In this document: positions 5,093 to 10,691 of the stretch, piece after piece
How positions within the stretch are numbered: position 1 is the first letter of the stretch
Layout of the letters: each line of letters opens with the position of its first letter
Assembly: GCA_028532855.1 (NCBI GenBank)
Contig: JAQQAL010000051.1
Coordinates: forward strand, 1-64,000
Length of the DNA stretch: 64,000 nt
Direction of reading: 5' to 3'
From: Candidatus Thalassospirochaeta sargassi
GTDB lineage: Bacteria > Spirochaetota > Spirochaetia > UBA9216
Program-made: the position numbers and the translations under genes
Notes under the pieces: generated by a model
The model's database searches: none
Seen by the model: only the letters and a program-made list of their open reading frames with translations
What the model was told of the DNA's origin: nothing

Positions 5093-7933
5093 CTACCATT
5101 GAGGCGGAAGGTATCTTTCTACATTTTTTTTGCTTATTATTCGAAGCGGGAGATACTGTATCGGCTCTACTTTAAGCCCGTTAAAATAACTCATTGCAGT
5201 AACAAGGGGCAGAGCGCCGGTGCTTTCTGCCGATTGCATTGTTTCTATATTCAGTTCCCCGCTCTGTATTCCTTTCATGCCTGTTCCCGAGTTTCCGAAT
5301 GCAACAATTATTTCAGGTTTGTAACCCTGTTTGTTGAATTCTTCGATTATAATTTTATACGACAGATCGTTTCCTAACACAACACCTTTAATTTTCGCTC
5401 CATATTTTGCAGCCCATTCCCGTGCGCAGGTTCTTAACTCTTCCTTATTATCACCGTTGTCAAAGATTTCCAGACAATTCATTTTGGGTGCGACGCGGGA
5501 CAGTTCTGAGATGACTCCGTAGGCTCTTGCATAGAATACCGCAGACCCCGGGGCAATAGATACAAGGCAGTACTCTCCTGTGTTGTTCATAAGATGTGCA
5601 AAGTTACGGGCAAGCAGCCGTGCCTGCCCCCAGTGATCAGGTCCTGTTGCTGACAGGATGTATTTATATCCTTCACGCTCAGGCCATCTGTTACTGACTA
5701 TTACCGGTATGTTTTTATCATAAAGCTTTTTAAGCCATGCAGTGCTTCCTTTTACATCGATTGGAACATAAACGACCATATCCGGCTTTTCTTTGAGAAT
5801 TTCCGAAAGTTGGCTGTTCTGGAGCTCGCCGTTTTTGTCGGCAGATAAGATTTTAACATCAAGGTTGAAATGATCTGCATATTTCTGCATTCCCCGGCAA
5901 TAAGCCTTGAAGTAGGGTTTATTGCTGTCCGGGATGAGAACCACAATTCGTTTTCCTTCAGCGCCGTCAGCTTTTGATTGAGGCATTTTCAGTTTTTCAG
6001 TATCCCACCCGCCGTATTCCATGTCCCACCATCTTAACGGATCTGTTTCAGGAAGCTGCTCCGGATTCTCGGGCCGTGGTGGAATCTTTTTTGTATTTTT
6101 TTCGAGTAATATCAGAGGCTGGCCGTCTTCCGATTTTAGACTTTTCATATCTATTGTCTTGAAAAGTTCAATTTCCTGATCCATGATTTTGAGAAATTCA
6201 GTGTTCCGATTCCCGAGATTCGAAACGGCCGCAACAGAAGTGTTTATTTCATGAATTCCGGCGGAAGTTTCTTCCAGCGCGATGGAATTCCTGCCTGAAA
6301 GGCTGCTTAGGTTTGTCATAGCGCTTTCAATGCTGGAGCTTTTCTCTCTGATATTAACTGAACTGCTGCGGACATCGGAGGTGATATTAACCATAGTATT
6401 AAGTGCCTCCGTAACCTCTACGGTTCCTGCAGCAAGCTCTTGAAGGCCTCCTGTCATCTCGTTCATGCTGGAGGATACATCTCCTATGGTGTCAGTCATA
6501 TTGTTGATTGATTTTCCCATTTCTTCGGTAAGTTCTGCTGAGTTCTTTATATTGGTAATAATGAGAGCAAGATTATTAGAAATGTCTTTTGCATTCAGAG
6601 AAGTTGTTTCGGCAAGTTTTCTTATTTCATCTGCTACAACAGCGAAGCCTTTTCCGGCGTCTCCGGCATGAGCAGCTTCAATTGCAGCGTTCATCGCAAG
6701 CAGGTTAGTCTGGTCTGCAACGTTGTTAATAACTTGAAGGAGGTCGCTTATAAGATCAGCGTTTGATGAAATCCCGGTGATAACCTGGAGCGTTTCCTGC
6801 ATATCAGATTCGCTTTTTCTCGCTGTTTCTTCAAGCTGTACAATTATTCCCTGTTTGGATTCTGCAATGCCGCTTATATTGTTCACGCTTGCGATCATTT
6901 CTTCAACTGCGGCGGATGATTCATTAACTGCAGCAGCCTGTTCTTCAATCCTGTTCACTATATTTGCAAGCAGATGCTGTATTTCTTTCACATCGTCGTT
7001 TGCGCTTTGGACGTCTTCATCGAGAAGTAAACCATTATTTTTAAGATTTTCCATTGCAGATTCCATCTGCGCAACAACGGCCCCAATGTCTGAGCTTTTC
7101 CCTTCGAGTTTTTCTCCTATGGATCTGCTTTCAGAGGAAACCTCTTTCATCCTGTAGACAATGTCGTGTATTTTACCGATGAAACTGTTAACGTTTCGGC
7201 CGAGCTGACCTATTTCATTTTGTGAAGTCAGTTTAATGCGTTTTGTCAGATCGCCTTCACCGCTTGCAATTGCGGATACGTTTTTAATAAGAGTTCCGAT
7301 TGGCCGCAAAATAGCCCTTGTTGTTATTACTGCAATTATTACTCCAACTATTATAAGTATCAAAAAGGCTGTAACCAGTGTAATCAGCATTGCATTCATC
7401 ATTTTATTCTGCTCGGATGTATTTGCGGTCATCTCTTCGCTGAGTTCGGAATGTGCTGCTTCCACAGCGTTAAAAATACGATTATTTACAAGTGAAAGAT
7501 TCAAAGTTAAAATTTCGTATTCACTGTTCAACTGCATTGTGGCCGCAAAGTCTGTTTCATCAGCTATCTTGTTTTTTAAAATCATTATGCTCTCGACAGT
7601 CTCGGAGTAGTCTGCAATTATGGAGTCAGATGATTTGATTAAATCACTCATGTGCTCAGATGTTGAATCCATCTCGGCAATGGCAGTCCAGAACGCTTCT
7701 TCTTCTGTTTCGAGATCAACAGTAAGCATACTGTTCAGAGCAACCTGTGAGTTTAAATAACTTATGAGGAAATCATTGATATAGTCTTTTTTCTCATCTA
7801 TTACATTGAATTCGGAAAGATTTTTATTCATTTCTGAAATTCCGGCATAAGTTATAAGCACAATAACTCCAGAAAGAATTATGAGAGCGGTGAAACCGGC
7901 AGTGATTGCAATTTTCAACGATAGGTTTTTCAA
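5093..7933 (-). CDS. Methyl-accepting chemotaxis protein fused to a periplasmic-binding-protein-like domain
   Basis: A 946-residue chemoreceptor with an unusual layout: TM1 (about 7-29), an extracytoplasmic helical sensor (30-179), TM2 (181-203), HAMP (about 203-258) and an MCP signalling domain (about 270-585) with the conserved hairpin tip at about 406-442 ([10 protein letters not shown] and [11 protein letters not shown]). After a proline-rich linker (about 610-660) comes an approximately 285-residue domain resembling the sugar-binding Peripla_BP_4/RbsB family, starting [15 protein letters not shown] and containing VVLGNDL and [10 protein letters not shown]. There is no membrane segment between the MCP and this domain, so both should be cytoplasmic. 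It could bind an intracellular sugar-like ligand and feed the CheA-CheW array (inference). The TTG start has an AGGCGG ribosome site 7 bases upstream. Confidence 0.9.
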
Positions 7934-10217: not shown

Positions 10218-10691
10218 ATGGCGGATCATGATGAACAACTTCAGCTGGTAACTTTTCAGCTTGGTGAGGAACTCTACGGCATAGATATAATGAATGTCAA
10301 GGAAATACAGAAGGTAAGGGAAATAAGGCCCATTCCCAATGCTCCTATGTATGTTGAAGGAATCTTCAATCTGAGAGGAAACATAATTCCAATTATCAGC
10401 CTTCATAAAAGATTTCATCTTCGGAAAGCCGAATTGAATGATGAAGATGAAATGCTCAGCGGTTTTATGATTATTAATATAAACGACCGGTTCATAGGAG
10501 TTTATATCGATAAGGTTTCAAGGGTAATGACGGTGGAACAAACTGAAATTCAGCCTCCACCGCAGATGATATCCGGTATAGGTACGGAATACATTCAGGG
10601 AGTAGTTAAAGAAGACGACGGTTATCTGATAATTCTTGATATCAGCAGGTTGTTTGATCCAAAAGAACTACAGGCCCTTGGCGATTTTTAA
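10218..10691 (+). CDS. cheW: Chemotaxis coupling protein CheW
   Basis: A 157-residue single CheW (SH3-like) domain that couples chemoreceptors to the histidine kinase CheA in the cytoplasmic array. Landmarks are LVTFQLGEELYGIDI, the conserved EI and RPIPNAP region, and IFNLRGNIIPIISL, all typical of the family. The ATG has an AGGAGG ribosome site (10208-10213) 4 bases upstream. It is the first gene of a plus-strand run that continues with the DegT-like gene, nadK and recN. No cheA, cheR, cheB or cheY lies in the window, so this CheW must work with components encoded elsewhere. Confidence 0.93.
   Translation: MADHDEQLQLVTFQLGEELYGIDIMNVKEIQKVREIRPIPNAPMYVEGIFNLRGNIIPIISLHKRFHLRKAELNDEDEMLSGFMIININDRFIGVYIDKVSRVMTVEQTEIQPPPQMISGIGTEYIQGVVKEDDGYLIILDISRLFDPKELQALGDF

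Follow-up and report, generated by a model that had tools for sequence, protein, structure and literature searches.

In classical SBP-dependent chemotaxis (RbsB and MglB with Trg, MalE with Tar), a separate periplasmic substrate-binding protein (SBP) docks on the outer domain of the receptor. The receptor described here is encoded in a 64,000-nucleotide stretch of the genome of Candidatus Thalassospirochaeta sargassi (contig JAQQAL010000051.1, positions 1 to 64,000), hereafter called the window. It brings the same SBP superfamily into taxis, but its SBP is covalently attached, cytoplasmic and C-terminal, whereas RbsB, MglB and MalE are separate and periplasmic. A cytoplasmic SBP-fold sensor is also found in AraC-family regulators of the XylR type. 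The 16 relatives of this kind have an N-terminal SBP domain without signal peptide, and they share with the window receptor both the SBP subfamily and an N-terminal extension of the domain. Their output is a DNA-binding HTH domain (HTH_18), in contrast to the MCP hairpin of the receptor, and no HTH_18 output domain is matched by Pfam in the window protein. The exported CUT2/RbsB-type SBPs of spirochaetes, encoded in operons with URO-D genes, likewise have the subfamily, the extension and a YPPQW end in common with the receptor. However, these proteins work for an ABC transporter and have a signal peptide, which the receptor module lacks.

Chemoreceptors with a C-terminal ligand-binding domain (CZB and other types, 17 in number) have already been described (PMC7390727). 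They resemble the window receptor in that the sensor follows the signalling domain and faces the cytoplasm. The window receptor differs from this general description in carrying a two-lobed SBP with the full mature length of its subfamily. The same order of domains is found here, with Peripla_BP_4 (residues 663-919) placed after MCPsignal (PF00015, residues 368-516, 4e-34). The preliminary description of this DNA had suggested that the arrangement could be an undescribed receptor class. No account of a receptor with a C-terminal Peripla_BP_4 domain was found in a literature search that lay largely outside the subscription journals; C-terminal sensors of MCPs as such are known, if poorly studied.

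The receptor gene and the boundary of its SBP module

The TTG start codon is preceded by AGGCGGA. The encoded protein comprises, in order, TM1, a 150-aa periplasmic domain, TM2, HAMP, the MCP hairpin and a CUT2/RbsB-type SBP module (Table 1). The presence of a transmembrane MCP and a Peripla_BP_4/RbsB-type domain in one open reading frame, proposed from the letters alone, is borne out by Pfam and hydropathy. The HAMP, MCPsignal and Peripla_BP_4 matches all clear their cut-offs by a wide margin, Peripla_BP_4 with 101 bits where 35 are required, and RbsB-type PDB chains match the module, down to 3.7e-16. The periplasmic domain found no match in Pfam or PHROGs. MCPsignal is matched at 22 places of the genome. 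Peripla_BP_4 has 37 matches there, and that of the receptor is the only one in a frame of more than 400 aa. AlphaFold models built from two-row alignments are of low confidence (pLDDT 50.7 and 42.3) and give no direct view of the pocket or of the coupling. Foldseek on the domain model returned SBPs and LacI-type proteins with a probability of 1.00 but a TM of ~0.3, a result no more than consistent with the fold.

Table 1. Features of the receptor gene and of related genes (positions without a locus prefix are those of the window)
Feature	Position	Strand	Details
MCP-SBP fusion receptor gene	5093..7933	-	946 aa, TTG start, stop 5093-5095
TM1	7844..7912	-	residues ~8-30, hydropathy
Periplasmic domain	7394..7843	-	residues ~31-180
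TM2	7319..7393	-	residues ~181-205, hydropathy
HAMP after TM2	7166..7324	-	residues 204-256, PF00672 7.4e-13
MCP cytoplasmic hairpin	6152..7165	-	residues ~257-594, AMNAA tip at residue 413
SBP N-terminal extension (DGQPL...IPPRP...)	5951..6151	-	residues 595-661; common to exported SBPs and AraC-type relatives
Peripla_BP_4 core	5177..5947	-	residues 663-919, 8.3e-29
SBP C-terminal tail	5096..5176	-	residues 920-946, YLPPQW end as in exported SBPs
CheW-like gene near receptor	10218..10691	+	read from translation
Fused receptor without transmembrane segment	L154:9414-11645
AraC-type SBP regulators	L023:17589-19274, L025:17507-19219, L029:1776-3695, L032:8979-10730, L033:9288-11063
Further AraC-type SBP regulators	L097, L100, L124-L140

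A linker followed by a binding domain of approximately 285 residues had been proposed initially. The SBP domain stood, but the separate linker did not, as the module starts at about residue 595 and not at 660. After their signal peptide, the exported relatives have a matching segment (LKAADGQPLL...IPTRPANPEALPDTNPLRWFDMEYAGWD near the start) together with YPPQW at the end, which identifies residues 595-661 as the conserved N-terminal extension of this SBP subfamily. The ordinary MCPs of related genomes end mostly 181-183 residues past the tip motif; the fused receptors switch to SBP sequence at about this same distance, and the C-terminal arm of the window hairpin stops at tip + ~181, the usual MCP end. 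From the shared extension and the YPPQW end it follows that, judged by sequence, the protein couples a complete MCP to a mature SBP that is likewise complete and lacks a signal peptide. A CheR/CheB-tethering pentapeptide of the xWxxF type is not present at the C-terminus; the window receptor ends in LPPQW, a tail common to the exported SBPs.

Fused receptors among spirochaetes

The same MCP-then-Peripla_BP order, for which the preliminary description had proposed a search, recurs in other genomes. In 975 genome searches with the SBP domain, with some genomes repeated and Spirochaetota as the one phylum sampled, 13 such receptors were obtained, counting that of the window, from five spirochaete family codes (f1, f3, f8, f13 and f19). 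Beside the window receptor these are L014, L094/L148, L095/L149, L096/L150, L099/L153, L102/L155 (cut at a contig end), L103, L104/L145, L116/L146, L122/L151, L131/L152 (cut at a contig start) and L133/L154. MCPsignal and Peripla_BP_4 are matched in all 13 and HAMP in 10. The sequence of the hairpin tip is invariant among them, and the distance from the AMNAA tip to the DGQ motif of the SBP is 190 residues in every case.

The 150-residue periplasmic domain occurs in two of the 13 only, the window receptor and L014. Ten others have just a short hydrophobic anchor region and apparently no periplasmic sensor (L131 is cut at the contig start). In L154, no hydrophobic segment is present in the open reading frame and no membrane segment in any frame upstream, and its ATG follows a purine-rich stretch. 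As far as can be recognised, the SBP is the only sensor in the receptors without periplasmic domain.

Trees were calculated from 47 SBP domains and from 47 MCP hairpins. In the SBP tree, the exported forms group together in a single clade (100/100), as do the AraC forms (97/90); the receptor domains lie between them, and a single receptor clade is marginally compatible with the data (p-AU 0.07). In the hairpin tree, 12 of the 13 fused receptors form one clade (97/96) which L133 adjoins, and one clade of all 13 is not rejected (p-AU 0.55). One old fusion event would be the simplest, though unproven, account.

Pocket positions and gene neighbourhoods of the subfamily

Pocket positions were numbered by alignment on the ribose-binding protein 2ioy, in which we take N13, D89, R141, N190 and Q235 to be the ribose-site positions. 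Mostly, the three SBP forms have H, N, R, D and Q at these places, respectively. The R141 position is R in 46 of 47 sequences and the Q235 position is Q in 43 of 47, across transporter, regulator and receptor forms. In the window receptor, R803 and Q900 occupy sugar-site positions while N855 is found where most relatives have D. The window receptor and L014 both keep R/K and Q, with K/N at the first position and N at the fourth; R803 is replaced by K in L014. At E<1e-20, neither an exported SBP nor an AraC regulator belonging to the subfamily was found in the genome of the window. Because of this and of the diverging pocket positions, the window receptor may bind a different ligand, or little.

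The exported SBPs of the subfamily share their operons with genes for a CUT2-type ATPase and two permeases as well as with URO-D family genes. In one genome (G402), two URO-D genes, the ATPase, two permeases, the exported SBP and a fused receptor follow each other in this order on one strand, and in another (G408) the fused receptor is immediately preceded by the exported SBP gene. Two further genomes (G397 and G393) have an AraC-type regulator with a subfamily SBP domain ~10 kb from the exported-SBP operon. No ABC transporter genes were seen beside the window receptor when the translations were read. A cluster of a CUT2-type ABC transporter, an extended SBP and several URO-D genes recurs in spirochaetes (L023:5978-17472, L025, L027, L030, L031 and L145); its 439-aa member at L023:16156-17472 has no Pfam match. 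Since the URO-D superfamily takes in corrinoid methyltransferases (PMC10418091), a methylated sugar-like ligand may be guessed at, and a literature search on URO-D/corrinoid clusters yielded no paper tying them to this SBP. A tblastn search of plasmids returned generic SBPs only (~24% identity), in alignments starting after the N-terminal extension.

Proposed working of the receptor and alternatives

We consider it probable, at roughly 70%, that the window protein acts as a chemoreceptor anchored in the membrane, with the cytoplasmic SBP module at the end of the C-terminal arm of the hairpin as its main or second sensor. A cytoplasmic sensor is supported by the service of the same subfamily in cytoplasmic AraC-type regulators, and the sensing of an internal ligand is the best inference. 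MCP hairpins fold back on themselves, which brings the end of the C-terminal arm close to HAMP. The two lobes of the module would shut on a small molecule, imported or internal and probably sugar-like. With the arm returning towards HAMP and the membrane, this closure would presumably act on the membrane-proximal HAMP/methylation end, and a clamshell held in constant register at the end of the arm could bias the membrane-proximal bundle. CheA activity would change as a result and the cell would follow what was taken up. In the window receptor, the periplasmic domain may add a second, external input.

The adjacency of the receptor gene to the SBP gene of the transporter in G402 and G408, as well as the diverging pocket positions of the window receptor and L014, would also fit a module that docks or dimerises instead of sensing a ligand, for example by holding the receptor near the transporter or other SBP-fold proteins. 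We regard this as unlikely, since R141 and Q235 are largely kept in all three forms and the receptors without periplasmic domain would be left with no other recognisable sensor. Somewhat less likely again is that the periplasmic domain is the sensor of the window receptor and the C-terminal module a neutral or decaying passenger. The restriction of the 150-residue domain to the window receptor and L014, its absence from the other 11 and the divergent pocket residues could be read in this way. An unused passenger should drift faster, however, whereas the module is 65% identical between these two proteins, without gaps, compared with 64% for the whole protein.

The preliminary description had assigned the module to the cytoplasm on the grounds that no membrane segment separates it from the signalling domain. 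This holds: the protein has two transmembrane segments only, and a hidden segment before the module was sought and none was seen after residue 230, where no window of 19 residues exceeds a mean hydropathy of 1.28. The location is well supported by the lack of a third transmembrane segment, by the ten homologues apparently without periplasmic domain and by L154, whose SBP, to go by the predicted protein, must be cytoplasmic as there is no transmembrane segment at all. Although other SBPs of the subfamily are exported, we reject a periplasmic module, reached by an unseen membrane crossing or an inverted topology, as very improbable: no hydrophobic segment is available for it, the CheA/CheW-binding hairpin runs straight into the module, L154 has neither a transmembrane segment nor a signal peptide, and the AraC-type relatives are cytoplasmic by function. 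Where the CUT2 SBPs have the signal peptide by which they are exported, the module follows the MCP hairpin without any hydrophobic stretch.

That an MCP gene and an adjacent SBP gene were merged artificially, by misassembly or a frameshift, a thought suggested by the adjoining exported SBP and receptor genes of two genomes, is hardly conceivable and is rejected: no join was detected at residues ~590-660, the receptor L014 (a Spirochaetales MAG, SZUA-414, the sole return of a scan of genome contigs for relatives) excludes one by aligning over 946 columns without a gap at 64% identity, and independent full-length homologues refute the artefact with a single reading frame and the constant 190-residue spacing in 13 receptors from 12 different genomes.

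The wider proposal is that of a monophyletic and unreported spirochaete class which arose when the binding module of a transporter was attached, in one fusion, behind a complete MCP, and in which a module reused for uptake, transcription and taxis lets cells steer by their imports; we see it as evenly balanced. If true, one recognition module would work in three places: outside in uptake, inside in transcription (AraC type) and inside in taxis. In the textbook view SBPs are outside sensors, so that a conserved class with the SBP inside would permit a direct test of steering by the internal concentration of an imported compound (metabolism-dependent taxis), and likewise of the way in which signals could reach an MCP through its C-terminal end. 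The 190-residue register and the variants with a periplasmic domain, without it and without a membrane anchor offer ready-made comparisons. Elsewhere in the window, a long run of flagellar genes was read from the translations at 38079-63998.
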